A stretch of 64,000 bases of DNA from a bacterium. GTDB lineage: Bacteria; Vulcanimicrobiota; Vulcanimicrobiia; Vulcanimicrobiales; Vulcanimicrobiaceae. Position 1 is the first letter of the stretch; every line of letters starts with the position of its first letter. Of the stretch, positions 8,624-55,213 are shown piece by piece. The stretch lies in contig JAJZED010000004.1 in assembly GCA_021805775.1 (NCBI GenBank), forward strand, positions 64,001 to 128,000. The letters are read 5' to 3'. A program made the position numbers and the translations under genes. The notes under the pieces were generated by a model, which had not been told where the DNA came from, did not search any database, and was given only the letters and a program-made list of their open reading frames with translations.

Positions 8624-10312
8624 GTGAAACATCAATCTCTGCGTCGCGCGGCGTTGACGGCAATAGCAGTGGCGAGCTCGCTCGCCCCGGCTGTATCGCT
8701 CGCCGCGTCGACCGGCGCTTCGGCGATTCCGGTGGTCGCTCGCGGCTATCGTGCTCCTGCGATTCCCGCAGCGGCGTCGACGATCGTTGGAATTACCGGT
8801 CAGCCTTTTGTCGGTATCCGACTCCACGATGCGATCGCGATGGCGCTTCGGAAAAATCCCTATCTCGCCATCGCCGGAGAGAACGTCAAAATCGCGCGCT
8901 ACGCGGTCGTCGCGGCCAAGGGTAATTTCGATCTGCGCTTCCAAATTGCACCCTCGGTAGCGCACGTCACTCAGGCGCCGACGAACGCTTTTTTCGCCGG
9001 ACCGAACTTTAGTCCGATCGTACAGAACCAGCAGAAGGTCGCGGGAACGCTCAGTGCGTTATTGCCCGGCGGACAGAGCGTGAGCGTCGGATTATCGCAG
9101 AGCAAAACGATCGATAATACCTCCATCAACGCTTTTGACCCGAGCTATGCAACTTCATTGAATGTCGGGCTCGACCAACCATTGCTTCGCGGTGCCGGAA
9201 TGAACCCCGCACGGGAACAACTTCAACTCGCCGTCGCCGGCTCGCGCGCCGCGCGCGCGCTAGCACGCGCGCAGGCAGCTTCAACGATAGCGTCGGTTGA
9301 ATCGACGTATTGGCAGCTCGTTGCTGCGTGGCGAAGCGTCGCTATCGCACAGAGCGCGCTGCGCGAAGCGATGTTGCAGGAAGGCAGTGTCGATCGCCTC
9401 GTTTCGCGCGGTGCGGCAGCGCCGATCGAACGAACCGAAGCGCAGTCGCAGGTGGAGAGCTTTCGAGCAACGCTCGATAGCGCTCTGCAACAGGTAGCCG
9501 GGTTGCAGAACGCATTGAAGGCGCAGATTCTCAGCGAAAGCAACGACCCCATCTGGCGCGCCAATCTCGTGCCCACCTCGCCGGCGCGGGCTTTGCCAAA
9601 AATTGCGAAACTCAATGCTCTCGTCACGCGGGCACTGCGCGACCGTCCGGAGATCGCGCAGAGCGCGGCGACTCAAGAAGAAGCGGCGATCGCATTAGCC
9701 GGCGCAAAGAACGGCGTCTTACCGAAAATCGATTTAACGCTCGGCTATCAGAGCAACGGTTTTGCCGGCATTCCCACCAACGTCAATCCCTTTGGCGCGG
9801 GGCCGGCAACCCCCGTTCCAGGGTATTTGGCGGGAGCGATGGCACAGTCGTACCATAATCTGTGGGGTGGCCGTTTCCCGGTCTACAGCGCGCAAATTAC
9901 CTACTCGACGACCTTCGGACACCGCACTTCGCATGCCGCCCTTGCAACCGCTCGCGCAAAGGCGCGCATCGCGGAGTTGCAATCGAAGGGCCTCGTCGAC
10001 CAAATAGTCATCGAAAATCGCAATGCGTTGCAGGCCTATCGCTCGGCGCTCGCTCGCCTGTCGGCAACGCGAGCCGCGCGTATTGCGGCAAAGGCCGTCT
10101 ACCAGTCGGAGGTCCGTAAGTATAAGAATGGTGCGTCGACTACCTTTCTCGTGCTGCAACGGCAAGTTCAACTCGAGCAGGCGCGTGGGGCCGAATTGCA
10201 GGCGCAGACCGATCTCAATATCGCGGTGGTGGAGATCGAGCGAGCGAGTGGAACGATCCTCACGAAGAATCACGTAAAGCTCGCCGCGCTCGGTTCTGGG
10301 GTGGCGCCATGA
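8624..10312 (+). CDS. TolC-family outer-membrane efflux protein
   Basis: 562 residues from GTG 8624, with AGGAG about eight bases upstream. A signal peptide is visible (residues 1-29, ending SLAAS). The protein then shows the two-repeat outer-membrane efflux (OEP) layout: long heptad-like helices around residues 215-310 and 420-540, with beta-strand hairpin segments before each. RLHDAIAMALRKNPYLAIAGEN near residue 66 is the typical opening helix. It completes a tripartite pump with the preceding two genes and shows that the host has an outer membrane. Confidence 0.93.
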   Translation: MKHQSLRRAALTAIAVASSLAPAVSLAASTGASAIPVVARGYRAPAIPAAASTIVGITGQPFVGIRLHDAIAMALRKNPYLAIAGENVKIARYAVVAAKGNFDLRFQIAPSVAHVTQAPTNAFFAGPNFSPIVQNQQKVAGTLSALLPGGQSVSVGLSQSKTIDNTSINAFDPSYATSLNVGLDQPLLRGAGMNPAREQLQLAVAGSRAARALARAQAASTIASVESTYWQLVAAWRSVAIAQSALREAMLQEGSVDRLVSRGAAAPIERTEAQSQVESFRATLDSALQQVAGLQNALKAQILSESNDPIWRANLVPTSPARALPKIAKLNALVTRALRDRPEIAQSAATQEEAAIALAGAKNGVLPKIDLTLGYQSNGFAGIPTNVNPFGAGPATPVPGYLAGAMAQSYHNLWGGRFPVYSAQITYSTTFGHRTSHAALATARAKARIAELQSKGLVDQIVIENRNALQAYRSALARLSATRAARIAAKAVYQSEVRKYKNGASTTFLVLQRQVQLEQARGAELQAQTDLNIAVVEIERASGTILTKNHVKLAALGSGVAP

Positions 10313-12129: not shown

Positions 12130-13695
12130 TTAAATCCTTCGCCAGATATTTCCATCATCGTGAGTGAGAATATCGGCTTGTTGCGGGCCTTCCGAGCCTG
12201 CGGGATAATTCGGAAAACTGCGGTCCTTCGTCGAACTCCAACGTTCGAGAACCGGAGTGACGATTTCCCAAGCGAGTTCGACTGCGTCCCAACGCGTGAA
12301 GAGCGTTTGATCTCCGCGGACCGCGTCGGCGATCAAACGCTCGTACGCAGGCGCGGATGCGACGCCGAACCCGGTGCCGTAGTTGAAATCCATCGTAACG
12401 GCGCGAATATGGTTCTTCGGGCCCGGGACTTTTGCATTAAAGCGCAGCGAAAGCCCTTCGTCGGGTTGAATCTTCATAACGAGGACGTTTGCCTCGATCG
12501 CGTCGCTCGCCTCACCGAAAAGCCGGTGCGGAATCGGTGCGAAGGTAACGGCGATCTCGGTTGATTTTCGTGCGAGTCGCTTGCCGCTGCGGAGATAGAA
12601 CGGAACCCCGGACCAACGCCAGTTATCGATTTGGAGTTTGAGCGCGGCAAATGTTTCGGTATTCGATGCCGGATTGACGTCGGGTTCGTCGCGATAGCCC
12701 GGGACGCTCTGCCCCTCTATGGTGCCGGGTCCATATTGCCCGCGTGCGGCAAAGCGATCGAGGCGGTCCGGGTCGAGAGGCCTCATCGCCGAGAGCACCT
12801 TAAATTTTTCGTTGCGAATAGCGTCGGCACTCGATGTTGCCGGCGGCTCCATCGCAACGAGTGCGAGAAGATTCATGACGTGGTTCTGCAACATATCGCG
12901 GAGCGCACCGGAGCTCTCATAATAGCCTCCACGCTGTTCTACCCCTAATGTCTCCGAAGCGGTAATCTGTACCGAGCGAATGTATTGCCGGTTCCAAATC
13001 GGTTCGAAGATCGTGTTTGCAAACCGAAGCGCCATGATATCTTGGACCGTCTCTTTGCCGAGATAATGGTCGATACGATAGATATGCCGCTCGTCGAATA
13101 CGCTATTGATTTCTCGTTGCAACGCACGTGCCGTGGCAAGATCGGTCCCAAACGGCTTCTCGACGATAATGCGCGTCCAACCTGCAGTATTTGATTTCGG
13201 GTCGAGCTTCGCCGTTGCAAGGCGCTCGACGATCGTCGGGAATACCGATGGCGGCGTTGAAAGATAGAAGAGGCGATTGCCGACGGTTCCGAGTTGTGCG
13301 TCGCTGCGCTCGAGCACCGTTCGAAGATCGTGAAAGTGGGCGTCGTCATCGAAATCTGCGGTGATATAGGAAATGCGGCGCGAGAATTCAGCCCACATCG
13401 ACTCTTTGGTCGGACCGGAACGCGAAAACGAATCGATGCTTTCCTTACAGTAGGCACGGAAAGTATCGTCGGTAAAAGAAGAACGGGAAAACCCGACTAC
13501 GGAAAAGTTCGCGGGGAGAATCCCTTCAAGGCGCAAGTTGTAGACTGCCGGCAAGAGCATGCGCTTAAAAAGGTCACCGCTTGCGCCGAAGAACACGATG
13601 CTGCATGGGTCTTCAATTCGGTCGCTCTCCAGTAACGAACGCAATGGGTTTTCGAATTGCGACGGAAGATCGGTCGAGACGACGGCTTCAGGCAT
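12130..13695 (-). CDS. zwf: Glucose-6-phosphate 1-dehydrogenase
   Basis: 521 residues from ATG 13695, which overlaps the gnd stop by eight bases; an in-frame ATG at 13719 is possible. No clear ribosome site is seen before either. The nucleotide loop is GASGDL (37-42), the substrate lysine motif EKPFG (179-183), and the active-site block RIDHYLGKE (207-215). It oxidises glucose-6-phosphate to 6-phosphogluconolactone, reducing NADP+. It sits between gnd and its assembly factor opcA. Confidence 0.96.
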   Translation of the reverse strand: MPEAVVSTDLPSQFENPLRSLLESDRIEDPCSIVFFGASGDLFKRMLLPAVYNLRLEGILPANFSVVGFSRSSFTDDTFRAYCKESIDSFSRSGPTKESMWAEFSRRISYITADFDDDAHFHDLRTVLERSDAQLGTVGNRLFYLSTPPSVFPTIVERLATAKLDPKSNTAGWTRIIVEKPFGTDLATARALQREINSVFDERHIYRIDHYLGKETVQDIMALRFANTIFEPIWNRQYIRSVQITASETLGVEQRGGYYESSGALRDMLQNHVMNLLALVAMEPPATSSADAIRNEKFKVLSAMRPLDPDRLDRFAARGQYGPGTIEGQSVPGYRDEPDVNPASNTETFAALKLQIDNWRWSGVPFYLRSGKRLARKSTEIAVTFAPIPHRLFGEASDAIEANVLVMKIQPDEGLSLRFNAKVPGPKNHIRAVTMDFNYGTGFGVASAPAYERLIADAVRGDQTLFTRWDAVELAWEIVTPVLERWSSTKDRSFPNYPAGSEGPQQADILTHDDGNIWRRI

Positions 13696-14599
13696 TGTTG
13701 TTTTCGTGTTTGACGGCATGGCCGCCAAATTGATTGCGCAATGCGGCGATGACTTTAGCGCTAAACGATTCATCTTGGCGCGATGCAAAACGTGCGAGCA
13801 AAGAGAGCGTTATAACCGGAGCGGGTACGTTTTCGTCAAGTGCGGCCTGTACCGTCCATCGCCCCTCGCCGGTGTCGTCAACGTAGCCGCGAATGCTTTC
13901 TAGTTTCGCATCGTCGTCGAAAGCTAGGACCGCAAGTTCTAGAAGCCAAGAACGCACGACGCTTCCATGACACCAAATTGAGGCGAGTTGCTTGAGGTCG
14001 AATGGGAACGGCGACTTTTCCAGGATCTCAAAGCCCTCGCCGTATGCTTGCAGCATACCGTATTCGATGCCGTTGTGGACCATCTTCGAGAAGTGACCGG
14101 CGCCGGCAGGACCGACGTGCGCGTAGCCGTCGGCCGGCGCGAGGCTGGTGAAGATCGGTTCGCAGCGGCGAACTGCATCGTCGTCGCCACCGACCATCAG
14201 GCAGTACCCCTCGCGCAGTCCCCAGACGCCTCCGCTGGTGCCGGCGTCGACGAGTGAGACGCCGTGCGCCTTGGCGCGTTCGTACGCAGCAAGGCCGTCT
14301 TTGTAATTGGTGTTGCCGCCGTCGACGATAATATCGCCGCGGTCGAGCAGATCGAGAAGATCGTCGATCGTTTTGTCGGTCGGCGCTCCCGATGGAACCA
14401 TGATCCAGATCGTACGAGGCCGATCCGTAACCTTCGCAACGAGTTCGGAGAGCGATGCTGCGGCCGTCGCTCCACCTGCAGCGGTGGCCGCAACGGCTTC
14501 AGTACTGCGGTCATAAGCGACGACTGCATGCCCGTGTTGGAGTAGACGCGTCACCATGTTGGCGCCCATTTTCCCTAAACCTACCATTCCAATTTGCAC
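13688..14599 (-). CDS. gnd: 6-phosphogluconate dehydrogenase, short form
   Basis: 303 residues, the length of the short (GntZ/YqeC-like, often NAD-preferring) form rather than the 470-residue enzyme. The Rossmann motif GLGKMG is at 7-12, the substrate block GTSGGVWGLREGYCLM is near 118-133, and the catalytic lysine region is HFSKMVHNGIEYG near 165-177. It produces ribulose-5-phosphate and CO2. Coenzyme preference cannot be settled from what I see; the residues after the first loop (AYDRST) include an Arg typical of NADP binding. Confidence 0.94.
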   Translation of the reverse strand: MQIGMVGLGKMGANMVTRLLQHGHAVVAYDRSTEAVAATAAGGATAAASLSELVAKVTDRPRTIWIMVPSGAPTDKTIDDLLDLLDRGDIIVDGGNTNYKDGLAAYERAKAHGVSLVDAGTSGGVWGLREGYCLMVGGDDDAVRRCEPIFTSLAPADGYAHVGPAGAGHFSKMVHNGIEYGMLQAYGEGFEILEKSPFPFDLKQLASIWCHGSVVRSWLLELAVLAFDDDAKLESIRGYVDDTGEGRWTVQAALDENVPAPVITLSLLARFASRQDESFSAKVIAALRNQFGGHAVKHENNNA

Positions 14600-14633: not shown

Positions 14634-17477
14634 TTATTTTGCTATAGATGCGGTAAGTGATGATTCGACGCTCGCTATAAACTGCTGCAACGCCGTGTCG
14701 ATCGTTCCATTGAGGTGAACGCGCGCGCCCCGACGCGCGCGTTTGTCAAGAGATTGCAGGTCGCCGAGCGCTTGGGCCGCAATTAACGTGCGAAAGCTGA
14801 CATTCATCCCTGGGATCGTTCGATCTTCGGGCTCGTCGGCAACGATCTGAATGAAGAAAACGTTCGACGGGCCGCCCTTGTGCAGTTGTCCGGTCGAATG
14901 AAGAAAGCGCGGGCCAAAGCCCACGGTCGTAGCCACGCGCAGTGCGTTGCGAATCGCCACGCGCAGTGTATCGAGCGATGCGATGTGATGACTATCTCGT
15001 TGCAAGTATGCGGTAATTGCAACATAGTCGTTCGGGCGGATCTGTCCGATGAGCGATTGCAGAACGGCCGATGCGTCGTTTCCGGCTATCCCGGCACTTC
15101 CGGCGAGCAGCGTGAGATCGAAGCTCTCGCTGCGTACGTTGGGAGCGGGGAGATCGATCCGACCGCTCTGTGCGTAGCTCGCGAGGAGGCTCTTCGTGTT
15201 GTCCTTCGATTCCTGAACGTTGGGTTGGTCGAACGCATCGATGGCGAGCAGGGTGCCTACCGTTGCGGTCGCGATCTCCCATAAGTAAAACTGTTCGCCA
15301 ATGTCGTAGAGATCGTTCATTGCCAGGCGTACGACGGGGTGACCGGCGGCCTCGAGTGCCGCCAAGCGCTCGAGGTCTTCGCTACGAGGACTTGGGAGCG
15401 TGTCGCCGACGTAGACGAAGAGGCGGTCGTTACCGTAGTCTCCGGGAGCGCCGAGCGCCTCGCCTTCAATCGGAATGACTCCGCGTCCGAGTTTACCGGT
15501 CGATTCGGCGATTAATTGTTCGCACCAGGTTCCAAACGATGCGATCGACGGATGGCAGACGATCGTGAGTTTATCGCGGCCCGCAAGCGCGAGGGCGCCG
15601 ATTGTCGCTCCGAAATGGACGCCCGGCGCGACGCGTGGATCGACGACGCGATCGTTGGCATGCATGGCGCCGAGCGCTCGATCGAGCAGTAGCGGGACGT
15701 TGAGGCCGGAGAGGGCTGCGGGGAGCATACCGAAATAGGAGAGCGCGGAGTAGCGCCCGCCGATATTGGGGTCGTTGAGATAGATCGCGAGAAAGTCGTG
15801 TTGCTTCGCCACGCTCTCCATCGTCGTTCCGGCGTCGGTGATAGCGACAAAATGCGAACCCGCCTTCGCCGCGCCGACGAGTTTGGTAATCCGATCGTGG
15901 AAGTACGCGAAGTAAGCGTTCGGTTCCGTCGTCGAGCCGCTTTTGCTCGCTACGATAAAGAGCGTCCGTGCGAGATCGAGCTCCGCCTCGAGTCCGACGA
16001 TCTGCGCCGGATCTGTGGAATCGAGAATATGCAATTGTGGAAAACCCGGTTGCCGACCGAAGGTCGCTCGCAACACGTCGGGCGCGAGCGAACTTCCACC
16101 CATGCCGAGAACGACGACGTGTGCGAACCGTTGACGGACTTCGCCTGCGAATGCAGCGAGGTTGGGTGTCGATTCCAACAGATGCTGCGGAATGTCGAGC
16201 CACCCGAGCGCGTGCTTAATAATCTCGGCATGCTCGGGCGCATCGGACCAGAGCGTGGCATCTTTTGCCCAGAGCCGTTTCAAGAAGTCGATTCCATTGA
16301 GCTTCTCGATAGCGAGGTCGACGTGCGGGCGGAGCTCGCCGAGCGAAGCAACGACGCGTTCCTTCGACTCGGCGAGCATTTTTTGTTTATAGACGATCGC
16401 CCCGAGAAGGGCGGCATACGAATCCGAGAAAAGCGAGACGCCCTCGACCTGTAACGCATGCGTTACGTCGAAGAGCGAAATGCCGACCTCGCGCAGACGC
16501 TCCATCAGGCCGCGCGCCTCGTCGAGCCCTTCGCGCACGGTCGCTGCCCGCGGGTGCCCGTGGTCGAGAAGTGCATCGAGCGTGGCGGGCGGCATCGTAT
16601 TGACGGTATGCTCGCCGACGACGCTCTCGACGTACATCAGATCGGGGTATTGAGGATTTTTCGTCGAGGTGCTCGCCCAGAGAGGGCGTTGCACGCGAGC
16701 TCCGGCGGCTCTTGCTTTTGCAAAGGACGCGCCGAGAAAAAGTTCTTCGAATTTTTGGTAGGTTAGTTTTAAATTCGCGATGCCGGTTTTCCCGAGCAGG
16801 CTCTCGAGGCGCTCGCCCTTGTCGATACGCCCTTGAATCAACTTGTCGATTGCCGAGTCGATGCGACTGACGAATACGCTGTTCACCGAAGCGATCGAAT
16901 CGACCGGGAGCCCGGCGGCAATGCGGCGCTCGATGCCGCGCACGTAGGCCATCGCGGTTTTTTCGTACATTTCGATGGAAAAAATCAACGTAACATTGAT
17001 GTTGATGCCGGCGAATATGCACTCTTCGATCGCCGGAATGCCTTCGTTCGTTCCGGGAATCTTTACCATAAGGTTTGGGCGATCGACGCGTTTCCAAAGC
17101 GATTTGGCCATCGCAATCGTACCTGCGGTGTCGCGCGCCAAGAGCGGAGACACTTCGAGGCTGACAAAACCGTCGCCGCCCTTCGATGAAGAATAGACCG
17201 CGGAGAACTCATCGCAAGCGCTCCGAATATCGGCAACTGCGAGATCCCAAAAGAGCGCGTCGGCATCGCGCTCGCTGCCGATGAGCGATCGCAGCTGTTC
17301 GTCGTAATCGTTGCCCGCTCCGATCGCTTTCTCGAAAATCGTAGGGTTGCTGGTCATCCCACGAAGACCGTTCTCAATGAGGCGTTTGAGCTCGCCCGAG
17401 GCGAACATCGAGCGGCGCAAATTATCGAGCCATACGCTTTGTCCGTAGTCGAGAAGTTGTTGCATCGAGTTGGGCAC
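14634..17477 (-). CDS. Bifunctional transaldolase / glucose-6-phosphate isomerase fusion
   Basis: 947 residues. Residues 1 to about 370 are a transaldolase: TSNPTIFEKAI near 43-53 and the Schiff-base lysine segment LMVKIPGT (K139), then GININVTLIFS. Residues from about 390 to 947 are a phosphoglucose isomerase with SIS folds, including VLGMGGSSLAP and ASKSGSTTEPNAYF near 512. Tal-Pgi fusions are known in several phyla. The fusion links the fructose-6-phosphate made by transaldolase to glucose-6-phosphate, feeding Zwf in the same operon and supporting a cyclic oxidative pathway. Confidence 0.95.
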   Translation of the reverse strand: MPNSMQQLLDYGQSVWLDNLRRSMFASGELKRLIENGLRGMTSNPTIFEKAIGAGNDYDEQLRSLIGSERDADALFWDLAVADIRSACDEFSAVYSSSKGGDGFVSLEVSPLLARDTAGTIAMAKSLWKRVDRPNLMVKIPGTNEGIPAIEECIFAGININVTLIFSIEMYEKTAMAYVRGIERRIAAGLPVDSIASVNSVFVSRIDSAIDKLIQGRIDKGERLESLLGKTGIANLKLTYQKFEELFLGASFAKARAAGARVQRPLWASTSTKNPQYPDLMYVESVVGEHTVNTMPPATLDALLDHGHPRAATVREGLDEARGLMERLREVGISLFDVTHALQVEGVSLFSDSYAALLGAIVYKQKMLAESKERVVASLGELRPHVDLAIEKLNGIDFLKRLWAKDATLWSDAPEHAEIIKHALGWLDIPQHLLESTPNLAAFAGEVRQRFAHVVVLGMGGSSLAPDVLRATFGRQPGFPQLHILDSTDPAQIVGLEAELDLARTLFIVASKSGSTTEPNAYFAYFHDRITKLVGAAKAGSHFVAITDAGTTMESVAKQHDFLAIYLNDPNIGGRYSALSYFGMLPAALSGLNVPLLLDRALGAMHANDRVVDPRVAPGVHFGATIGALALAGRDKLTIVCHPSIASFGTWCEQLIAESTGKLGRGVIPIEGEALGAPGDYGNDRLFVYVGDTLPSPRSEDLERLAALEAAGHPVVRLAMNDLYDIGEQFYLWEIATATVGTLLAIDAFDQPNVQESKDNTKSLLASYAQSGRIDLPAPNVRSESFDLTLLAGSAGIAGNDASAVLQSLIGQIRPNDYVAITAYLQRDSHHIASLDTLRVAIRNALRVATTVGFGPRFLHSTGQLHKGGPSNVFFIQIVADEPEDRTIPGMNVSFRTLIAAQALGDLQSLDKRARRGARVHLNGTIDTALQQFIASVESSLTASIAK

Positions 17478-17480
17478 GAA

Positions 17481-19478
17481 TTACCTCCTAAGTGATTCGA
17501 AATGTTGCCGAGCGAGATCGGCGAGATGTGCGGGAGTAAACTGAAGTTCGGCTATTGCATCGGCCATCGGCGCCGAGAGCCCGAAGCGATCGACGCCCAA
17601 GGAAAAACCATCGAGACCGACGTAGCGCTCCCATCCCAGCGTTGCCGCAGCCTCGACGCTCGCGCGTTCGCGTACGTCCGAGGGGAGAACGCTTTCGCGG
17701 TAGTTCTTCGGTTGCGCGTCGAAAAGTTCCCACGAAGGCATCGAAACGACGCGGATGCGTTTGCCCTCTGCGCTCAGCAACGCCGCCGCGTCGCGCGCGA
17801 GCGCAACCTCCGATCCGGTGGCGATGAAAATACAATCCGGTTTTCCTTCGCAATCGACGAGAATATAGGCGCCGCGTTCGACCGGAGCGGCGCGTTTGCC
17901 GAGAAACGGCACTTTCTGTCGCGTGAGAACGAATATCCAAGGGCGCCCTTTATCGGCGAGCGCTACCTCCCACGCATTGCGCACTTCGAGGGCGTCCGCG
18001 GGCCGTACGACGACGGCATTGGGAAGTGCTCGCAAGCTCGCTAGTTGCTCGATCGGCTGGTGGGTCGGCCCGTCTTCACCGAGCAGAAACGAATCGTGCG
18101 TAAAGATTAAAAAAGCGTGAAGATGCGAGAGCGCGCTCAGACGCACCGCCGGCTTGCAGTAGTCCAGGAAATTGAAAAAGGTCGCGGCAAAGGGGAGCAG
18201 GCCGCCATGAAGGGCGATGCCGTTGACGATCGCCGCCATCGCATGCTCGCGCACGCCGAAGTGAATGTTCCGGCCGGCGTAACTCGAAGGCTGAAAATCG
18301 CCGCAATTTTTGAGGTAGGTCTTCGTAGAAGGGTCGAGATCGGCAGAGCCGCCGACGAGTTCCGGCAGCGCAGCGGCGATAGCGTTCATCACGGTTCCGC
18401 CGGCGTCGCGGGTGGCTACCGTGCCGTTACTTTCATCGAACTCCGGGAGCGGAAGATTTTTCGGTACGTCGCCGCGTAGCGCGCGCTCGAGTTGCGCGGC
18501 AGCCTGCGCGTTTGCCGTTTTCCATCGTGCAAAGCGCGCGCTCCACTCGGCATGCATCTCCGAACCGCGTTCGCCGCAGGAACGGAAGAATGCGAGTGCT
18601 TCCTCGGGTACGTAGAAGGGAGGTGTCAACGGCCATCCGAGATGCTCTTTGGTCTTCGCGACATTTTCGGCGCCGAGCGGCTCTCCATGCGCCTTAAACG
18701 AATCCGCGAGCGGAGACCCGTAACCGATATGCGTTCGCACGCAGACGAGCGACGGACGATCCTCGACGGCTTTGGCCGCCGCGATCGCCGCATCGATTGC
18801 CTCGACGTCGTTTCCATGCTCGATGTCGACGAATTGTACGTGCCAACCGCACGCTTCGAAGCGCGCGATGTGGTCGTCGGTAAACGTAATCTCGGTCGGA
18901 CCCGCGAGCGAGACGCGGTTGTCGTCGTAGAGTACGATGAGGCGACCGAGTTGCAGGTGTCCGGCGAGCGAGATCGCTTCCTGACTGATCCCCTCCATAA
19001 GGTCGCCGTCGCCGACGATCGCATAGGTGTGGTGGTCGCAAATGCGCTCGGTGCGATTGTAGGTCGCCGCCAGGTGGGCTTGCGCGACGGCGATGCCGAC
19101 GGCATTGGCGATGCCCTGGCCGAGCGGGCCCGTCGTTGCCTCGACGCCGGGTGTATGCCCGACCTCCGGATGGCCGGGCGTCTTGCTCCCACGTTGACGA
19201 AAGGACTCGAGGTCGGCGAGCGAGAGCTCGTAGCCGGTGAGATAGAGAAGCGCGTAGAGCAACATCGAGCCATGCCCGGCCGAGAGGACGAAGCGGTCGC
19301 GGTCGAACCACGATGGATCGCGCGGATCGAAGCGCAAATGGCGCGTCCAAAGCGTAAAGGCCATCGCCGCCGCACCGAGCGGCATTCCGGGATGGCCGGA
19401 GTTTGCTTTTTGGACTGCATCGACGGCGAGGAAGCGAATGGTGTCGATACATTGCTCCTGCGCTGGCGTGTTTGGCAC
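17481..19478 (-). CDS. tkt: Transketolase
   Basis: 665 residues, full length. The start is GTG at 19478 with a strong ribosome site (GGAGGA) six to eight bases upstream. Thiamine diphosphate site: GDGDLMEG near residue 155, followed by NNR-type [10 protein letters not shown]-terminal [10 protein letters not shown] and the pyrimidine-domain block [14 protein letters not shown] are present. First gene of the minus-strand pentose phosphate operon (tkt, tal-pgi, gnd, zwf, opcA, pgl), with only three bases to tal-pgi. Confidence 0.97.
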
Positions 19479-27035: not shown

Positions 27036-27896
27036 TCACTCACCGTTAAGCTGCGCGCGCGTCGGGCTCGGCGATGGGCGTGGCCCCACAACGAAGAGTG
27101 CGTCGGGCAACGCCGCGGGGAAGGCCATCGCACGGTACGCGACGCCAAGCGTATCGTGCGCCACCTGCACACCGAAGGAGCGAGCGCCGATAAAAATGCG
27201 AGCGTCACGCACGAGCCAGTAGCGGTCGATCGCTCCAAAATGAAGGTCGATGTAGCCGGTAAGCCCGAGTGCGATGACCGAGGCCCCGAACGCAAACCGC
27301 ATCGAACAGAAGCGCCCCGTCGCACTTTCGATAACGACGTACGAGAGCATATGCTCCTTCGGATCGCGAATCGCATCGAGATGTAACGCGTGTCCGGGCG
27401 CACCATTCGGGCAGAGCGCCGCACCGCGGTCGCTGATGCGATACGCAGATGGTGCGACGGCACTAACGATAGCGATGACTTTCATGCCATCGACTTTTGC
27501 ATGCGGCATCGGCGAAGGTGAGGGCGCCTTTGTTCGATCGTTGAACGCCTTGAGCCCATACTGCACGAGATCGTACGCGCCCGCCCAGGTTGGATCGAAG
27601 AGGTGGCCGGGATCGAGTTGCCACGCTCCTCGTGGAAGAAGACGATCGACCGCACGCCCGTCACGCGTGCGTAGCCGATATTGGTAGCGATCGGGCTTCT
27701 TCCCGTTTTCGAGAATACGGACGCGATAGGTGAGGTACGGCGGCACTGGGAGCCGCCCCATCGTGCGCACGGCCTCGGCGTAGTAACGCGCCGCCGAGGG
27801 TGGCGCATCGGCGCGTGCGGCATGCGGCGCGAGAGCGCTCACGACGATCGCACATGCGAAAAAGGCGTGAAGAAGACGTCGTACAATGCAGATCAT
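27036..27896 (-). CDS. Secreted protein of unknown function
   Basis: 286 residues from ATG 27896, where a signal peptide begins (MICIVRRLLHAFFACAIVVSALAPHAARA, about 29 residues). The longer upstream frame is arginine-rich and unlikely. The mature part contains YLTYRVRILENGKKP, a proline/serine spacer (APSPSPMPHAKV), two cysteines near the middle, and ends in a PSPSPTRAQ tail. Similar-looking proteins lie in the DUF-type outer membrane protein-processing families, but I do not recognise this one. Confidence 0.7.
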   Translation of the reverse strand: MICIVRRLLHAFFACAIVVSALAPHAARADAPPSAARYYAEAVRTMGRLPVPPYLTYRVRILENGKKPDRYQYRLRTRDGRAVDRLLPRGAWQLDPGHLFDPTWAGAYDLVQYGLKAFNDRTKAPSPSPMPHAKVDGMKVIAIVSAVAPSAYRISDRGAALCPNGAPGHALHLDAIRDPKEHMLSYVVIESATGRFCSMRFAFGASVIALGLTGYIDLHFGAIDRYWLVRDARIFIGARSFGVQVAHDTLGVAYRAMAFPAALPDALFVVGPRPSPSPTRAQLNGE

Positions 27897-28069
27897 GGCT
27901 CTCGTACTGCGCGAGGCTAGATTTTGTTTCACCGGTCGCTCGCACCGTACCGGCCATCCTCGAACGCAAGGCTGAGTCCCGCGCCTAACGGCACGATCGC
28001 GCGCTTCCATCCGGTGAAATCCGAGACCGGCGCGCTCGCATGTTCGCGCTCCACGTAGCTGGGATTCCC

Positions 28070-35550: not shown

Positions 35551-36975
35551 GTGAAGTCCGCCTTGGTCGTCGGAGCCGGTTTTGCCGGGTTGAGCGCCGC
35601 GCTGCACTTGGCGCGCGCCGGCGTGGCGGTCGAGGTTCTTGAAGCTGCCGACCGACCGGGCGGACGCGCGCAGGCATGGAGTAGCGGTGGGTATCGTTTC
35701 GATCTTGGCCCGACGCTCGTCGTGATGACCGATCTCCTTGAAGAGGTATTGGGCGCCGATCGTTTCGCCGCGCTTGAATTGATGCGCCTGGAGCCGGGTT
35801 ATGAAGTGCGCTGGCCCGACGGCGAGCGTTTTGCGGTGCACTCCGATATCGCGTTGTCGCTCGCGGAGTTCGAGCGGATGGAGCCGGGCGTCACTCCACG
35901 AGCCCTCGATTACTTCGCGCGCGTCCATGGTGCATACCGCGACGCGCGCAAGGAAGTGCTCGAGCGCGATCGGTCGTTGCTCTCCTTTGCGGGCTTGCTC
36001 GCGCGCCCCGGTCGGATGCGGCCGTGGATCGCCGGATCGTTGCGGCGTTTTACCGAGCGGTTTTTTCATCGACAGCGACTCGTTGAGGCGTTGACGTTTC
36101 AATCGCTCTATCTCGGTACATCGCCGCTGCGCGCTCCGGCGATCTATGCGTTGCTCCCCGTCGTCGAAGCGATCGAAGGCGTGTGGTTCGCACCGGGCGG
36201 CATGGCGAGCATCGTCGATGCATTCGTGGAAGCGGCGCAATCATGCGGAGTCAGATTTTCGTACGAGCGGCGCGTCGAGCGCATCGAACGTCGCGCTGAC
36301 GGCAGTTGGAGCGCTTCGACGGCAGAGCGAAGCTATGAAGCCGATGCGGTTGTCATCGCGGCGGATCGCGAACCCTCCCTCGCGCTCTTAGGGGCGCAAC
36401 CTCCTCGCTTTCGCGCGATGCGGTACGGACATAGCGCGCTCTGTATCTATCTCGGCGTCCGTCGGCAGGTCGATCTCCCGTATCATTCGGTCTTGCTGCC
36501 CGACGATCCATGGCGCGCCTACACACAGCTCGACGGCGGCTCTCTGCCCGACGATCCGCTCCTCTACGCGTACAATCCGGTCGCACGCGATGCAAGCGCC
36601 GCCCCCGCCGATGGAAGCGCGCTGCTCGTCCTCGCTCCGGTGCCGAATCTCACCGCCCTTCGCGAAGCGGAGCTCGCGGCGTTTCGCACCCGCATCTTCG
36701 CGCGTCTGGAACGCGAGGTCGGCGAACTGCGAGAGTTTATCGAAGTCGAGCGCGTGCGCGGACCCGCTGAGTGGGCGAGCGAACTCGGCCTCATGCACGG
36801 CGCGGCATTTGGCCCCGACCACGGGCTCGATCAAATGGGGCCGTTTCGTCCACCGATCGTCGATCGTCGCTTTCCGGGGCTGGCTTTTGCCGGTAGCGGG
36901 ACGCGCCCGGGCTCGGGGGTGCCGATGGTGATCCTCTCCGGGCGTCTCGCCGCCGAGCATCTCTTGCAACGATGA
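35551..36975 (+). CDS. Second CrtI-family carotenoid oxidoreductase (CrtP/CrtNb-like candidate)
   Basis: 474 residues from GTG 35551, with GGAG about ten bases upstream. The FAD loop is VVGAGFAG with LEAADRPGGRAQAW following, and the C-terminus carries LAFAGSGTRPGSGVPMVILSG. It is a diverged paralogue of the desaturase at 32757. In staphyloxanthin-type clusters a second CrtN-like enzyme oxidises the end methyl groups; this is the likely but unproved role. ATGA overlap with the acyltransferase. Confidence 0.85.
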   Translation: MKSALVVGAGFAGLSAALHLARAGVAVEVLEAADRPGGRAQAWSSGGYRFDLGPTLVVMTDLLEEVLGADRFAALELMRLEPGYEVRWPDGERFAVHSDIALSLAEFERMEPGVTPRALDYFARVHGAYRDARKEVLERDRSLLSFAGLLARPGRMRPWIAGSLRRFTERFFHRQRLVEALTFQSLYLGTSPLRAPAIYALLPVVEAIEGVWFAPGGMASIVDAFVEAAQSCGVRFSYERRVERIERRADGSWSASTAERSYEADAVVIAADREPSLALLGAQPPRFRAMRYGHSALCIYLGVRRQVDLPYHSVLLPDDPWRAYTQLDGGSLPDDPLLYAYNPVARDASAAPADGSALLVLAPVPNLTALREAELAAFRTRIFARLEREVGELREFIEVERVRGPAEWASELGLMHGAAFGPDHGLDQMGPFRPPIVDRRFPGLAFAGSGTRPGSGVPMVILSGRLAAEHLLQR

Positions 36976-37685
36976 CGTGGCAGCGAGCGCACCGCGTTGC
37001 GGGCTTCGAAACAACGTTCGGATATTATCTGCGTTGGTTCATGCGGCGGAGTTTCGCGCGCGTTCTCGTGCGTAGCGAGCGGCCGTTTCCACGCGCCGGG
37101 TACGTCGCTGCGGCGAATCATCACTCGTGGTGGGACGGCTTTCTCGCGCTGACGATCCATCGCGCTTTTGCCCCCGAACGCCCGTTCAACCTGATGATGG
37201 ATGACGAGCAATTGCGCCGATTTCCATTTTTTCGATTCGGCGGCGCCTTCTCTGTCGATGCGCGTAGCGTGCGCGCCGCGTATCCCGCGATTCGATACGG
37301 CGCCGCCCGCGCGCGCGAGGGCGCGGGGCTCTGGATTTTTCCGGACGGCACGCTCCGTCCGTCGCTCTGCGAGCCCGCGTTTACTTCGGGCTTCGTGCAT
37401 GCCGCGCGCGCCGCGGAGGTTCCGGTGTTGCCGGTTGCCATGCGTTTTGTTTTTCTCGGCGAGCAACGACCTACGGCGATTGCGGCGCTCGGTGCCCCCT
37501 GCGATCCCCACGCGCGCACCGCCCAAAAGACGGTACAGGAGCGCGTCATCGCGCTCCTGACGTCGATCGACGACGATCTGCGCGCGCAACGCATCGACGA
37601 ACGGTATCGCGAGATCGTGCGCGGGAATGCGGGAATCGATGCGATCGTCGCGGCGTGCACCGCGCCGCTTCGCGGCAGGAAATGA
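36972..37685 (+). CDS. 1-acylglycerol-phosphate acyltransferase-like (PlsC fold)
   Basis: 237 residues. The catalytic HX4D motif is HHSWWD (H50, D55), and a FPDGTLRPS block near residue 120 stands in for the usual FPEGTRS. Both neighbours are carotenoid-tailoring genes and the overlaps are four bases each side, so it probably acylates a carotenoid glycoside rather than glycerol phosphate. That is inference from context. Confidence 0.8.
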   Translation: MTWQRAHRVAGFETTFGYYLRWFMRRSFARVLVRSERPFPRAGYVAAANHHSWWDGFLALTIHRAFAPERPFNLMMDDEQLRRFPFFRFGGAFSVDARSVRAAYPAIRYGAARAREGAGLWIFPDGTLRPSLCEPAFTSGFVHAARAAEVPVLPVAMRFVFLGEQRPTAIAALGAPCDPHARTAQKTVQERVIALLTSIDDDLRAQRIDERYREIVRGNAGIDAIVAACTAPLRGRK

Positions 37686-46796: not shown

Positions 46797-47752
46797 ACGG
46801 CGACCGCGACGAAAATCTTTCGTATCCGCTCATTGGAAGCATCCAAAACAGCGTCGGCATGGGCTTTATCGGGAATCAGGCCTTCGCTGCAGTCGCACAC
46901 GGGCTCGGCCTTCGCGTCGTCCATGCAGATTCGATGTTTGCAAATGCTCACGGCGGGTTCTCGGGGCGAACGATGCATTACGCCGACCCGACGAATTTCC
47001 GGCGCGACGTCCGATTTCTCGTCGAGCAGGAGCCGCGCGTCATCCTCGTCGGATTTCTACCCAAGGCGATCTACGTCGATATCGTCGCGCAGGCGCTACG
47101 TGATTTTTCCGGCATCGTCGTGCTCGATCCCGTTATAGGTGACGGGAAAAAAGGGCTCTACGTCAGCGAGGAAACCGCGCGCGCGATCGTCGAGTTACTG
47201 CTTCCCGTCGCGCAGATCATCACTCCGAATCGCTTTGAAGCCGACGTTCTTGCCGGCGGTACGGGCGATACTTCGACGGAGTTCGGTTTTCTTAACGCGC
47301 TTTTCGATCTCGGGCCGAACGGCGTCGTCGTAACTTCCTACGAACGCGATGCCGAGAAACATCGCAGTCGCTTACTGTTTACGAACGGATATAACTACGC
47401 GCGTGTCGCGGCACCCTATTACCCCGCATATCCGGCGCACGGGGTCGGCGACGTGTTCGCGGCATCGATGGCCTGTTTCGTGGCCCTCGGAGCATCGCCG
47501 TTCGCAGCCACGCTACTTGCAACCACGCTAGCGGCGCGCGCGGTCGCAAACACCTCGCCGTACGGCGGCGCGACCGTCGATCCGGTCGCCGCACTCGAGA
47601 AATGGAATCCCAGCGGGTATCAACTCGACGACCAACGCACGATGGGATTTTGCGAACGATCGAATGTGAAGAGCGAACTGATGAAAGCGACTGCAGTCGA
47701 CGCACCACGCCTAAAGTTTGCTCCGCCGAAGCATAAAATACTCTACGGATGA
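46793..47752 (+). CDS. Pyridoxal kinase-like protein (ribokinase superfamily)
   Basis: 319 residues. The PdxK/PdxY-type features are SIQNSVGMGFIGNQAF (substrate side), VVLDPVIGDGKKGLYV, ITPNRFEADVLAGG and the anion-hole block AHGVGDVFAASMACF with the catalytic Asp. Pyridoxal and hydroxymethylpyrimidine kinases are hard to tell apart; the neighbouring thiL would suit a ThiD role, but the DPVIGDGK pattern favours pyridoxal kinase. The last 45 residues extend beyond the usual fold. Confidence 0.8.
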   Translation: MNGDRDENLSYPLIGSIQNSVGMGFIGNQAFAAVAHGLGLRVVHADSMFANAHGGFSGRTMHYADPTNFRRDVRFLVEQEPRVILVGFLPKAIYVDIVAQALRDFSGIVVLDPVIGDGKKGLYVSEETARAIVELLLPVAQIITPNRFEADVLAGGTGDTSTEFGFLNALFDLGPNGVVVTSYERDAEKHRSRLLFTNGYNYARVAAPYYPAYPAHGVGDVFAASMACFVALGASPFAATLLATTLAARAVANTSPYGGATVDPVAALEKWNPSGYQLDDQRTMGFCERSNVKSELMKATAVDAPRLKFAPPKHKILYG

Positions 47753-48171
47753 ACCCGGGCAGCGTACCGTTCGGGGAGCGCGCGAATGGCGCCGCGCTCG
47801 AGATCGATATTCTCGGGTACCGATATCCCGACGTCGCCGAGCCCGACGGCCTCGATCTGCTCGAAATCGCGGCACGTCTCTTCGCCCCGCCGGTGGAGAC
47901 GGAATTTAAACTTGCGGTCCGAGTACGCGAACTAGAGGGTTTGCAATCCTATTTGGTACGCATCTCCGGCGGAAACGGGCCGCGCGAGGTCGTGAAACTC
48001 GCCGACGGGCTCTTCGAACTCACCTTTGCGCCGACCCGACGTGGGCCGGTATTGATGGGAGTGATGCTACGCGACGTCGAGCGAGCGCACGTTCGCGTCG
48101 AGTATCTCGTCACGCTCGAACCGCACCACATCGGAAGAGCGGCAGCGAAGCTCCATGAAAGCCTAGGGTAA
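47749..48171 (+). CDS. Hypothetical protein, WapI-immunity-like pattern
   Basis: 140 residues, ATGA-coupled to the kinase gene. The opening ALEIDILGYRYPDVAEPDGLDLL, and the later strands FKLAVRVRELEGLQSYLV and LADGLFELTFAP, recall the WapI family immunity fold (LEIxIxGYxxP...). The resemblance is only in pattern and no toxin gene is adjacent. Function unknown. The end overlaps a convergent gene by nine bases. Confidence 0.45.
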   Translation: MNPGSVPFGERANGAALEIDILGYRYPDVAEPDGLDLLEIAARLFAPPVETEFKLAVRVRELEGLQSYLVRISGGNGPREVVKLADGLFELTFAPTRRGPVLMGVMLRDVERAHVRVEYLVTLEPHHIGRAAAKLHESLG

Positions 48172-50861: not shown

Positions 50862-52454
50862 ATGGATGTGACCGCGCTCGATGGGCGCGCCTTCGCGAAG
50901 TTCATCGCCGCGGGCAGCTACTTTCTCAAGAAATATCGAGGCGTTCTCAACGATCTGAACGTCTTTCCCGTCCCCGACGGCGATACCGGGACCAATATGT
51001 TCCTGACGGTGCGCGCGGCCGGCGTTGCGGCTGCAAAGTGCGCGGATGCCCCGCTCTCGGAGGTCGCCGCTGCGGCGGCGGAGGGCAGCCTGATGGGTGC
51101 TCGCGGAAACTCGGGCGTGATCGTGTCGCAGATGCTCCGCGGCTTCGCCCATCACGTTCGGCACCGTCGGGAGATCGATACCTTCGTCTTTGCGACTGCG
51201 CTTCGCGAAAGCGTCGCAGCGGCGCGTCAGGCACTGCTCCGTCCGGTCGAAGGGACGATTCTCTCCGTCGCCGATGCCGCAGCGGAGGCCGCCTATCGCC
51301 TCGCCTTGCACGAGCCGGATTTTTATCGTTTGTTGACCGGGGTCGTTCGCGCAGCCAACGAAGCGCTCGACCGCACGCCCGAGCAACTCGCAGCGCTCAA
51401 GGAGGCCGGCGTCGTCGATGCAGGCGGCGCGGGCTTTGTGTACTTTCTCGAGGGGATATCGAGTTTTCGCCCCGAGATCAAGGTGCGAGCGACCGCCTTC
51501 CCCCGCCGTCCGGCGAAGAAAACTGCCTTCGCCAAAACGCAGCAAATCGGCGAAAATAAATTCTGTACCGAATTCATCCTTGAAGATGCGTCGGTCGGCG
51601 TCCACGAGGTTCGGGCGACGCTCGAGAGGCTCGGCGAATCGCTCCTCGTCATCGGCGAGCGCCCGCGGATAAAGGTGCATATTCATACCGACGTGCCGCA
51701 GCGAGTTACGGAGAGCGTCGAGCGTTTCGGAACGGTAACGCACCTCAAAGTGGACGATATGGAGCGCCAACATCACGTGCTCGTCGTCGATAGCGTTCCC
51801 CACGAGCGCTCGATCGTCGTCGTCGCTCCCGGCGACGGGTTCGAAACGATCGCGCGCGAGTTGGGAGCAGAAGTTACGGTGCCGGCAACGATCAATCCCA
51901 GCGTGCGCGACCTGTTGCTGGCGATCACCAAGACGCTCTCGAATGAGGTCGTACTCTTCGTCAACGATAAGAACGTGGAGATGGCTGCGCGAGAAGCGGC
52001 CGATCGAAGTGAGAAGCACGTTACGATCGTGCCTACTCCGAATATCGTAGCCGGAATCGCGGGGCTCTTTGCCCTGCGCTCGCTCGGCGAAGCGACGATT
52101 CCTCCGGCGGAGAGGATTCTTCGCGAGGCCGCGCGCGTTCGAGCGGCTCAACTGTTTTTTGCGGGGAAAGATGCCCTGCACGGGAACCTTCGCATCGCAC
52201 GCGGGAAGCCGGTCGCCCAACTCGACGGCGAATTATTCGTTGCCGAGACAATAAAAGATACGCTCGTAGCCGTGGTGAAGACGATGGGGGGTGAACGCGG
52301 GTCGTTACTCACCCTTTACTACGGCGGCGTCCAACGCGAACGCGATGCAAAGGTGCTCGCCGAGGCAATGCACGAAGCCTTCCCTGATCTTGATGTGGAG
52401 TATTATTACGGCGGAATGAGCAACGCAGAGTACTGGATTGCGCTCGATGAATGA
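50862..52454 (+). CDS. fakA: Fatty acid kinase subunit FakA (DAK2/YloV)
   Basis: 530 residues. The N-terminal DhaL-type kinase domain has NVFPVPDGDTGTNM (metal ligands) and GARGNSGVIVSQMLRG. The C-terminal half is the FakA middle domain and the DegV-like tail (GGERGSLLTLYYGG). FakA phosphorylates a fatty acid presented by a FakB protein; PlsX then passes the acyl phosphate into lipid synthesis. The plsX and two fakB-like genes follow at once. Confidence 0.92.
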   Translation: MDVTALDGRAFAKFIAAGSYFLKKYRGVLNDLNVFPVPDGDTGTNMFLTVRAAGVAAAKCADAPLSEVAAAAAEGSLMGARGNSGVIVSQMLRGFAHHVRHRREIDTFVFATALRESVAAARQALLRPVEGTILSVADAAAEAAYRLALHEPDFYRLLTGVVRAANEALDRTPEQLAALKEAGVVDAGGAGFVYFLEGISSFRPEIKVRATAFPRRPAKKTAFAKTQQIGENKFCTEFILEDASVGVHEVRATLERLGESLLVIGERPRIKVHIHTDVPQRVTESVERFGTVTHLKVDDMERQHHVLVVDSVPHERSIVVVAPGDGFETIARELGAEVTVPATINPSVRDLLLAITKTLSNEVVLFVNDKNVEMAAREAADRSEKHVTIVPTPNIVAGIAGLFALRSLGEATIPPAERILREAARVRAAQLFFAGKDALHGNLRIARGKPVAQLDGELFVAETIKDTLVAVVKTMGGERGSLLTLYYGGVQRERDAKVLAEAMHEAFPDLDVEYYYGGMSNAEYWIALDE

Positions 52455-53457
52455 GCCGCGCATCGCGGTCGATGCTATGGGGGGCGACCGCGCGCCCGAG
52501 GAGGTCGTCGCAGGTGCCGTGCTGGCGGTAGAAACCTTTGGCGCCAACGTCGTCCTCGTCGGCGACGAGGCTCGCATACGCCCGCTCCTTCATGGAACGA
52601 CGGGCGACCGCATTGCCGTCGAGCACGCGCCCGAGGCCGTGCCGATGGATCAGCCCGCTTCGCAAGCACTGCGCGGGTCGGAGCGAACCTCGCTTGGACG
52701 AGCTGTTGAAATGATGAAATCCGGGGAGGTCGACGGCGTCGTCTCGGCCGGCAACAGCGGAGCGTTTCTCGCAATATCGTTGGTAAAACTGCGCACGATC
52801 GAAGGCATCGCACGCCCGGCGATAGCGACGGTATGGCCCGCGCTCAAGGGCCCCTCGGTGCTGCTTGACTCCGGAGCCAACGTCGATTGCCGTCCGGAAT
52901 GGCTCGTGCAATTTGGAATAATGGGGAGCGCGTATGCGCGCGCTGCGTTAGGCATCGAACGCCCGCGCGTCGCCGTCCTCTCCGTCGGCGAGGAACGAAC
53001 GAAGGGCAACGCATCGGTTCTGGAAGCGGCCGCGTTGCTCGACCGAGCGCCGGTACACTTCATTGGGAATATCGAAGGGAAGGACATGTTCCATAACGTC
53101 GCCGACGTCATCGTGGCCGACGGATTCGTCGGGAACGTCGTCTTGAAGACATGCGAGGGCATGATCGGCGATCTCGGTTCGATTATGAAAAAAGAAGTTT
53201 TGGGCGGCGGGCTCGCCGCGAAGCTCGGTGCGGCTCTGCTATTGCCGCGCCTTCGTGGGCTGCGCAAGCGGTACGATTACGAGACCTACGGGGGAGCGCC
53301 GCTCCTCGGTCTGCGCGGCAACTGCATCGTCTCGCATGGTCGCGTGAGTAGAAACGGCATCAAACACGCAATTCGAGCCGCCGTGGAAGAAGCGCGCGCC
53401 GACGTAGTAGGAAAGATCGCCGCACTGGTTGCCGGCGAAGCGGTGACGCAAGCGTAA
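52447..53457 (+). CDS. plsX: Phosphate acyltransferase PlsX
   Basis: 336 residues from ATG 52447, overlapping fakA by eight bases. IAVDAMGGDRAPEEVV at the N-terminus, VSAGNSGAFLA and the long GANVDCRPEWLVQFGIMGS block define PlsX. It interconverts acyl-ACP and acyl-phosphate, supplying PlsY and, with plsC at 39516, phosphatidic acid synthesis. It joins the next gene by a TAATG overlap. In many bacteria plsX is followed by fab genes; here it is followed by two DegV proteins. Confidence 0.96.
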   Translation: MNEPRIAVDAMGGDRAPEEVVAGAVLAVETFGANVVLVGDEARIRPLLHGTTGDRIAVEHAPEAVPMDQPASQALRGSERTSLGRAVEMMKSGEVDGVVSAGNSGAFLAISLVKLRTIEGIARPAIATVWPALKGPSVLLDSGANVDCRPEWLVQFGIMGSAYARAALGIERPRVAVLSVGEERTKGNASVLEAAALLDRAPVHFIGNIEGKDMFHNVADVIVADGFVGNVVLKTCEGMIGDLGSIMKKEVLGGGLAAKLGAALLLPRLRGLRKRYDYETYGGAPLLGLRGNCIVSHGRVSRNGIKHAIRAAVEEARADVVGKIAALVAGEAVTQA

Positions 53458-54341
53458 TGCCGATTCACATCGTCACCGATAGTACCGCCGATATCGACCC
53501 GGCGCTCGCGCTCGAACTAGGCGTTACCGTCGTTCCGCTCTTCGTTGTCTTCGGAAATGAATCGCTTCGCGATTATATCGACATTTCAAGACAGCAATTT
53601 TTCGAGCGACTTGAAAAGGACCCGGTCTTACCGACGACCTCTCAGCCGAGTGCGGCGATGTTCCGAGAGACGTTCCTGCAAGCTGCCGAACGCGGCGAAG
53701 ATATCATCTGCATTTCTATATCGTCGGTTCTCTCGGGAACCATCAACGCGGCTCGCGCCGCCGCAGAAAACATCGAAGGGGTTCGAATCGAACTCTTCGA
53801 CTCGCTCAATGCGGCCGGCGGCTTGCGATTTTTCGTCGAAGATGCCGTCCGCATGGCGGCGGAGGGCGCGTCGGTCGATGAAATTCTCGCCCATCTTACC
53901 GAAATGCGCGATCGCACCCCGCTTTACGCGACGTTTCCGGACCTCTCGCACGTGCAACGCACCGGTCGCATCGGGCGAGCGGCAGCGGTACTCGGCGGTT
54001 TAATGAAAATCGTCCCGATTTTGACGCTCGATGCAGGCGCGGTCGTTTCGCGCACGCAGGTTCGAACGTTCAAACGCGCTCAAGAAACGATGGTCGATCT
54101 TGCCTGTGCCGACGATCGTGGCGGGGCGGCAATGCGCTATCGCGTCATTCACACCAAATCCCCGGATATTGCAGAACGTATGCGCGAACAAATAGTCGAG
54201 CGATGTTCCGGGCGCGATGTATCGGTCGATGTCGTCGAGGCCGGGCCGGTCCTTGCCGTGCATGCCGGTACCGGAGCGATCGGCGTCGTCCTAACCGACG
54301 CCTACCCCGCCGGCTCTACAGCGAAAACTCGCTCGGACTAG
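53457..54341 (+). CDS. DegV family fatty-acid-binding protein (FakB type)
   Basis: 294 residues. TDSTADIDPALALELG at the N-terminus, the fatty-acid carboxylate motif TTSQPSAAMF near residue 60, SSVLSGTINAARAAAE, the LSHVQRTGRIGRAAA block, and a C-terminal AVHAGTGAIGV with the conserved His. All elements expected of an active FakB are here. It would present a fatty acid to FakA. Follows plsX in the same operon. Confidence 0.9.
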   Translation: MPIHIVTDSTADIDPALALELGVTVVPLFVVFGNESLRDYIDISRQQFFERLEKDPVLPTTSQPSAAMFRETFLQAAERGEDIICISISSVLSGTINAARAAAENIEGVRIELFDSLNAAGGLRFFVEDAVRMAAEGASVDEILAHLTEMRDRTPLYATFPDLSHVQRTGRIGRAAAVLGGLMKIVPILTLDAGAVVSRTQVRTFKRAQETMVDLACADDRGGAAMRYRVIHTKSPDIAERMREQIVERCSGRDVSVDVVEAGPVLAVHAGTGAIGVVLTDAYPAGSTAKTRSD

Positions 54342-54364
54342 AGCCATAGAAAAGGAGAATATCG

Positions 54365-55213
54365 ATGCCCGTTTCGGTTGTCACCGATAGCACCTGCGAT
54401 CTGTCGCGCGAGATGGCGGCGCGATACGGTATCGTACAGGTTCCGCTCTACGTGATCTGGGGGAGCGAACGTTTTCGCGACGGAATCGACATAACGATGG
54501 AAGAGTTTCACCGTCGGCTCATGAGTTCGAAAGAGAATCCGGTCTCCGAACCTCCTTCAGTCGATGATTTTGCGGCGGCGTTCCAAAAAGAGATCTCCGC
54601 CGGCAATGAAGTCATCTGCCCGACGATCGGCTCGAAGCTCTCGAAAACCTTCGAATCGGCCGGCGCGGCCGCGCGCAATTTCCCCGGAAAAGTGGAGGTC
54701 GTCGATACCGAAACGTTCTCCGGCGGTCTGGCATTGCACGCAATGCTCGCATCGGAGTTAGCGAGATCCGGGGTGCCGTTACAGGAAATTGCGGCTCGTA
54801 TGCGCTCCAAGCTTTTGACTCAGCGCGGAAACATGGTGCTGCCGGACGTCACTTTTCTCGGGCGTAGCGGTCGGCTCAATAAAGCGGTCGTTTCGCTCGC
54901 GCAGATGATGCGCTTGAGCCCGATTCTCCAACTCAATCGCGGGATCGCGGAATCTTCGACTCAAACCAACGATTTCGAGAAGTCGCGCCGACAGTTGATT
55001 GGAATTGCATTGCGTAGCCTTCCGGATACCTCGAAAATTCGCATCATGGTCGGGGCGGTCGATGCACCGGAGTTGGCCCTGGAATTCGAAAAGGAGATCC
55101 GCGAAAAATTAATCGGCGGCTGCGAGTCGCTCTTCGTCTACGCCTGTGGCCCGACCGTGGCGGTGAATTCCGGGCCACGCGCCTGTGCCGTCTTCTCGAT
55201 GCCGGTTGGGTGA
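54365..55213 (+). CDS. Second DegV family protein, divergent at conserved sites
   Basis: 282 residues from ATG 54365, with AAAAGGAG ten bases upstream, the only gene here with its own clear ribosome site in the cluster. TDSTCDLSREMAARYG, GSKLSKTFESAGAAARNF and FLGRSGRLNKAV are DegV features. The carboxylate motif TSQPS is replaced by SEPPS, and the C-terminal H-x-G-x-G segment reads VNSGPRAC, without the His. Its lipid binding or its partnership with FakA may differ from the preceding paralogue. Confidence 0.85.
   Translation: MPVSVVTDSTCDLSREMAARYGIVQVPLYVIWGSERFRDGIDITMEEFHRRLMSSKENPVSEPPSVDDFAAAFQKEISAGNEVICPTIGSKLSKTFESAGAAARNFPGKVEVVDTETFSGGLALHAMLASELARSGVPLQEIAARMRSKLLTQRGNMVLPDVTFLGRSGRLNKAVVSLAQMMRLSPILQLNRGIAESSTQTNDFEKSRRQLIGIALRSLPDTSKIRIMVGAVDAPELALEFEKEIREKLIGGCESLFVYACGPTVAVNSGPRACAVFSMPVG

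Follow-up and report, generated by a model that had tools for sequence, protein, structure and literature searches.

A fakA-plsX-fakB-fakB operon

The window, by which we mean the whole 64,000-nucleotide stretch of DNA analysed, carries four consecutive genes on its plus strand, and the fakA-plsX-fakB-fakB operon proposed here by an earlier, sequence-only reading was borne out, with all four products scoring above their family cut-offs. The first gene, fakA (50862–52454), encodes a DhaL-type kinase domain, a zinc-binding middle domain and a DegV-like C-terminal domain. It is followed by plsX (52447–53457), encoding an acyl-ACP:phosphate acyltransferase, and by two DegV-family genes: fakB1 (53457–54341), for a canonical fatty-acid-binding DegV protein, and fakB2 (54365–55213), for a divergent paralogue placed in a clade that we call B2 on the basis of TIGR00762, its residues, a tree, selection and the predicted fold. 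Reading of the sequence placed the plsX ATG at 52447, giving an 8-nt overlap with fakA; TAATG is common to the end of plsX and the start of fakB1; and fakB2, preceded by AAAGGAG, lies 23 nt beyond fakB1. Terminator-like sites were absent from the plus strand between the four genes, and a promoter scan was uninformative (1 found versus 1.6 expected). Upstream, roughly 70 nt separate fakA from the end of a plastocyanin-like gene, and a hemW-like gene, in its longest reading, overlaps the end of fakB2. Because plsX sits between fakA and fakB1 in overlapping frames, the two acyl-phosphate-making enzymes are probably co-produced, and the overlaps presumably tie PlsX to FakA.

The window comes from a 2.59-Mb genome (95.9% complete) of the phylum Eremiobacterota, named Vulcanimicrobiota in current NCBI usage. 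Among named records, the closest relatives of FakA belong to an Eremiobacterota metagenome-assembled genome (MAG) and two other MAGs (60–64% identity). That the host has an outer membrane, as the earlier reading held, agrees with an OEP/TolC-type gene in the window (8624–10312), with one Omp85 in the host genome by family search, and with electron microscopy of a relative that shows the outer membrane (PMC9758169, excerpt); an outer membrane in this phylum was already published (excerpts of PMC6664022 and PMC9758169). The same reading had placed plsC elsewhere in the window. A PlsC-type acyltransferase gene does lie outside the operon (36972–37685, plus strand; PF01553, E = 4.5e-13), and its assignment stops at that family; NCBIfam yielded no hit at E ≤ 1e-40.

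Other parts of the window hold a 947-aa frame on the minus strand (14634–17477) that matches transaldolase and then phosphoglucose isomerase, a transaldolase-isomerase fusion. It adjoins genes for transketolase (17481–19478) and G6PD (12130–13788) in a pentose-phosphate cluster. Two open reading frames, 47749–48171 (plus) and 27036–28010 (minus), gave no Pfam match at the thresholds used.

Family matches of FakA, PlsX and FakB1, with functional residues retained in FakA and FakB1

FakA scored 459 bits against TIGR03599 (YloV; cut-off 396.1), and its Dak2, FakA-like_M and FakA-like_C domains all exceeded the Pfam cut-offs; against the NCBIfam equivalog NF038248 it reached 288 bits, below the cut-off of 975. 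Nine residues linked to nucleotide, Mg and Zn binding in Staphylococcus aureus FakA (PMC9136124 and PMC11617999, excerpts) are all kept, these being Asn32, Asp38, Asp40, Thr41, Asn82, Asp185, Cys240, His282 and His284. The closest known system is the FakA/FakB fatty acid kinase of S. aureus and Streptococcus suis (PDB 7rm7, 6mh9 and 7w7h), whose FakA shares these functional residues; the window FakA aligned to 7w7h over its full length (E = 6e-78). The nine residues are also intact in 34/34 Eremiobacterota rows, a set made up of the window, three named loci and the 30 loci with the highest scores, in which at least one genome occurs twice, so that not all rows are independent. The loss of kinase motifs in relatives that would have undermined the earlier reading was not seen among these rows.

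PlsX exceeded the cut-offs of both the TIGR00182 equivalog (325 versus 243.4 bits) and PF02504 (338 versus 29.1 bits), and its best solved relative was the Bacillus subtilis-type PlsX 6a1k; the query for these family and structure searches began one codon past the ATG. The host genome also encodes PlsY (G000:C6:241732-242259) and, by family search, FabF.

The fakB1 product reached 283 bits against TIGR00762 (cut-off 99.7) and 168 bits against the NCBIfam FakB1 equivalog, below its cut-off of 350. By alignment, T61, S93, R171, R203 and H269 correspond to Thr62, Ser95, Arg173, Arg205 and His270 of S. aureus FakB1, so that five residues with ligand and docking roles in that protein (PMC8892158, excerpt) are identical in the window FakB1. 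This set is intact in 15/15 B1 rows. The relative Vulcanimicrobium alpinus contains chiefly iso-C14:0 and 3-hydroxy iso acids (PMC9758169, excerpt), and branched chains are for this reason likely ligands of FakB1.

In the established pathway, FakB draws a fatty acid from the bilayer and FakA phosphorylates it, PlsY consumes the resulting acyl-phosphate, and PlsX reversibly converts acyl-phosphate to acyl-ACP (PMC10146087, excerpt). From the sequences we infer the corresponding enzyme activities in the host. FakB1 would extract a free fatty acid, of outside origin or recycled, from the inner membrane; FakA would use ATP to convert the FakB1-bound chain to acyl-phosphate; and PlsY would acylate glycerol-3-phosphate with it. 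By interconverting acyl-phosphate and acyl-ACP, PlsX would also allow the chain to enter fatty acid synthesis or to reach PlsC.

Distribution and gene order across Eremiobacterota

Across 148 genomes of the phylum, matches above the cut-off were found for FakA in 88, DegV in 92, PlsX in 138 and PlsY in 138. FakA presence was scored more broadly: 95 genomes matched at E ≤ 0.001, two with weak, short matches (G039 and G045) were dropped and five with partial matches were kept, giving 93. On this scoring FakA and DegV occur together in 91 genomes and are both missing from 54, with FakA alone in two and DegV alone in one. Among the 90 FakA copies above the cut-off, to which the adjacency count was confined, plsX lies directly downstream on the same strand in 84, with 10–121 nt between the matches, and the order fakA-plsX-degV is found in 78. 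Five of the six exceptions to fakA-plsX adjacency have degV directly after fakA, all in family f15. A second, tandem degV follows at about 20 of the 90 loci; the automated count was 22, from which G089 and G117 were removed as pieces of one gene, and 15 of the 20, the window included, were read. The co-occurrence of FakA and DegV and the shared gene order are beyond chance, the Fisher test on the phylum counts being one that ignores the relatedness of the genomes.

FakA is missing from 55 of the 148 genomes, including all 18 of genus g4, in which PlsX is present in 17/18 and PlsY in 16/18. PlsX was rejected as a marker of the Fak system, as it is present in 47 of the 55 FakA-less genomes. Some FakA loci are irregular: the match is split into two neighbouring pieces at G060:C1:824285-825778 and G064:C99:12209-13775, possibly broken genes or assembly errors, and G078 and G140 each have two FakA copies, the extra copy being followed by only a short PlsX match.

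Comparison with Fak systems outside the phylum

FakAB was described as a Gram-positive strategy in a 2023 review (PMC10146087, excerpt), and the earlier reading had treated its occurrence in a diderm as noteworthy in itself. That part of the claim did not hold. The control genomes of Thermus composti, Deinobacterium chartae and Thermotoga maritima all gave FakA, DegV and Omp85 matches, and the titles of Thermus and Thermotoga DegV structures released in 2002–2007 already spoke of fatty-acid or lipid binding; novelty of Fak in diderms is thereby ruled out. The Thermus and Thermotoga proteins (2dt8, 1mgp and 1vpv) have the DegV fold, and these lineages the FakA, DegV and Omp85 families, in common with the host. 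What stood was the Fak/PlsX operon in a diderm, with intact kinase motifs, PlsY present and PlsB not found in the genome.

Three features set the arrangement apart from the S. aureus and S. suis systems: plsX is interposed between fakA and fakB, the head-group site of the second FakB is altered, and the host has an outer membrane. The yloV(fakA)-...-plsX cluster of Bacillales resembles it in keeping fakA and plsX in the same region. At 77 FakA loci from outside Eremiobacterota, picked by similarity, mostly from Firmicutes and some ending early, plsX was adjacent in none and lay 2.1–5.3 kb downstream in eight. Searches of the open-licence literature gave no description of Fak in Eremiobacterota, of the tight fakA-plsX-fakB order across most FakA-bearing genomes of this phylum or of clade B2.

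Alternative routes of fatty acid entry

PlsB gave no match in the 96%-complete host genome, in a search that matched the Escherichia coli control. Four AMP-binding proteins are encoded there. One is an acetate-CoA ligase above its cut-off; the other three, FadD11-like, benzoate-CoA-ligase-like and MbcS-like, each fall below the cut-off of their best family. The FadD11-like protein (L113) is a putative long-chain-type acyl-CoA synthetase and reached 314 of 950 bits. Of a complete PlsB/FadD route, which the earlier reading had named as the finding that would speak against it, the PlsB half was not found and the FadD half may be supplied by this synthetase. L113 relatives (E ≤ 1e-60) occur in 113 of the 148 genomes, 73/93 with FakA and 40/55 without it, a distribution that rules out replacement of Fak by a FadD-type synthetase within the phylum.

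Entry of fatty acids through such a synthetase, with the Fak genes otherwise employed, for example in regulation, would fit the presence of L113 and the spread of its relatives through FakA-bearing and FakA-less genomes alike. We consider it very improbable, since acyl-CoA would need PlsB to initiate phospholipid synthesis as it does in E. coli; moreover, the FakA motifs are intact, and family f3 has FakA, yet for 11 of its genomes no L113 relative is listed.

A serious rival to outside feeding is that the operon mainly recycles the cell's own acyl chains or tunes the acyl-phosphate pool. FadL was not found in the host genome, in a search that matched the E. coli, Caulobacter and Bacteroides controls; de novo synthesis is intact (FabF, PlsX and PlsY); and plsX as the partner gene suits internal balance. 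The Thermus, Deinobacterium and Thermotoga controls, however, match FakA and not FadL, and such FadL-free diderms with Fak mean that a missing FadL leaves uptake possible. Recycling is accordingly credible in our judgement, if somewhat short of an even prospect, and the Fak-PlsX-PlsY route outlined above could draw on either source.

FakB2 is a conserved DegV protein with an altered head-group site

The fakB2 product scored 201 bits against TIGR00762 (cut-off 99.7) and 76 of the 350 bits of the NCBIfam FakB1 equivalog, below the cut-off. In FakB1 numbering it carries S61, E62, P63, S93, K94, R171, N203 and N269, such that the FakA-docking Arg (203) and the carboxylate-network His (269) are both replaced by Asn. 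Both replacements are found in the window and in 3/3 genus relatives read. The earlier reading of this gene as a second fakB holds for its DegV family and fold and fails for these two residues, which are expected of a FakA partner.

In the DegV tree, which was midpoint-rooted for drawing only and has few outgroup rows, some long or partial, tandem and dispersed Eremiobacterota DegVs form clade B2 with support of 100/97. Its 21 rows have E62 in 19, K94 in 16 and N269 in 16, and Ser93 and Arg171 are intact in all 21. The His is retained in five and the docking Arg in 14, so a departure from FakA need not extend to all of clade B2. The clade was also sought outside the phylum among the best FakB2 matches from 30 genomes of the 77 outside loci, 32 proteins in total. 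E62 and K94 were each present in 0/32 and N269 in one, from the genome behind L061 (Caldiserica), and all 32 scored higher against FakB1 than against FakB2. A third DegV of the host genome, dispersed at C26:45742-46572 (L119), also belongs to clade B2, with the docking Arg kept and the His replaced by Asn; some 3.7 kb from it is a gene for an MbcS-like acyl-CoA synthetase.

Against three genus relatives, dN/dS was 0.070–0.075 for fakB2, 0.14–0.16 for fakB1 and 0.05–0.07 for plsX, values that are rough because dS is near or above 1. The gene fakB2 is under strong purifying selection, and a decaying copy is ruled out by a ratio that, even as a rough value, is below that of fakB1. The AlphaFold model of FakB2 has the FakB (EDD/DegV) fold (pLDDT 87.9) and is closest to the Thermus DegV 2dt8 (TM 0.89), followed closely by FakB structures of S. 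aureus. Model confidence is low at residues 161–180 (63 and 56 per block), and the matching region is mobile in S. aureus FakB1 (PMC8892158, excerpt).

The FakB1 and FakB2 proteins of S. aureus differ in chain selectivity. The two DegVs of the operon could likewise both serve FakA in the ordinary way and be distinguished by chain selectivity alone, with the altered residues tolerated. The tandem position of fakB2 in the operon, a predicted FakB fold with TM values of about 0.9 to fatty-acid-loaded FakB1 structures and the invariance of Ser93 and Arg171 in the clade would all suit such a pair, and several FakBs per FakA are usual (PMC10146087, excerpt). We nevertheless think it rather unlikely, as the docking Arg of FakB is described as invariant and central to the binding of FakA (PMC8892158, excerpt) and both this residue and the His are Asn throughout the host genus sample.

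Judged by its sequence, FakB2 is instead best read as a duplicated carrier that has been conserved and whose head-group site has changed, and in the host genus the usual docking on FakA is most likely absent. FakB2 may store or chaperone acyl chains, a role that has been proposed for Streptococcus pyogenes FakB4. Mutant analysis showed that FakB4 does not feed into phospholipid synthesis (PMC10138225, excerpt), a precedent for the role proposed here; FakB4 is FabT-regulated, and it is likened to clade B2 by role, not by sequence. A bolder proposal, which we hold to be improbable, is that the Glu62/Lys94/Asn269 clade is a second type of DegV carrier, evolved in Eremiobacterota, that has ceased to present fatty acids to FakA and binds a different ligand, such as acyl-phosphate or a hydroxy or branched acid.

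Implications for acyl-phosphate metabolism

Taking these data together, we consider it likely that the operon serves the standard Fak-PlsX-PlsY route and adds to it a FakB-like carrier, one that probably does not partner FakA in the ordinary way. This puts a route of fatty-acid activation commonly regarded as Gram-positive into an outer-membrane phylum, where the genes for the FakA kinase and PlsX are neighbours in a single operon. Close relatives without FakA and DegV, such as genus g4 for FakA, form a natural comparison group. Through the altered FakB2, the function of the 'invariant' FakB residues can be tested directly, as can the way in which cells handle unstable acyl-phosphate. If the carrier does hold acyl-phosphate, the operon would encode, along with the kinase, a carrier devoted to the unstable compound that the kinase makes.
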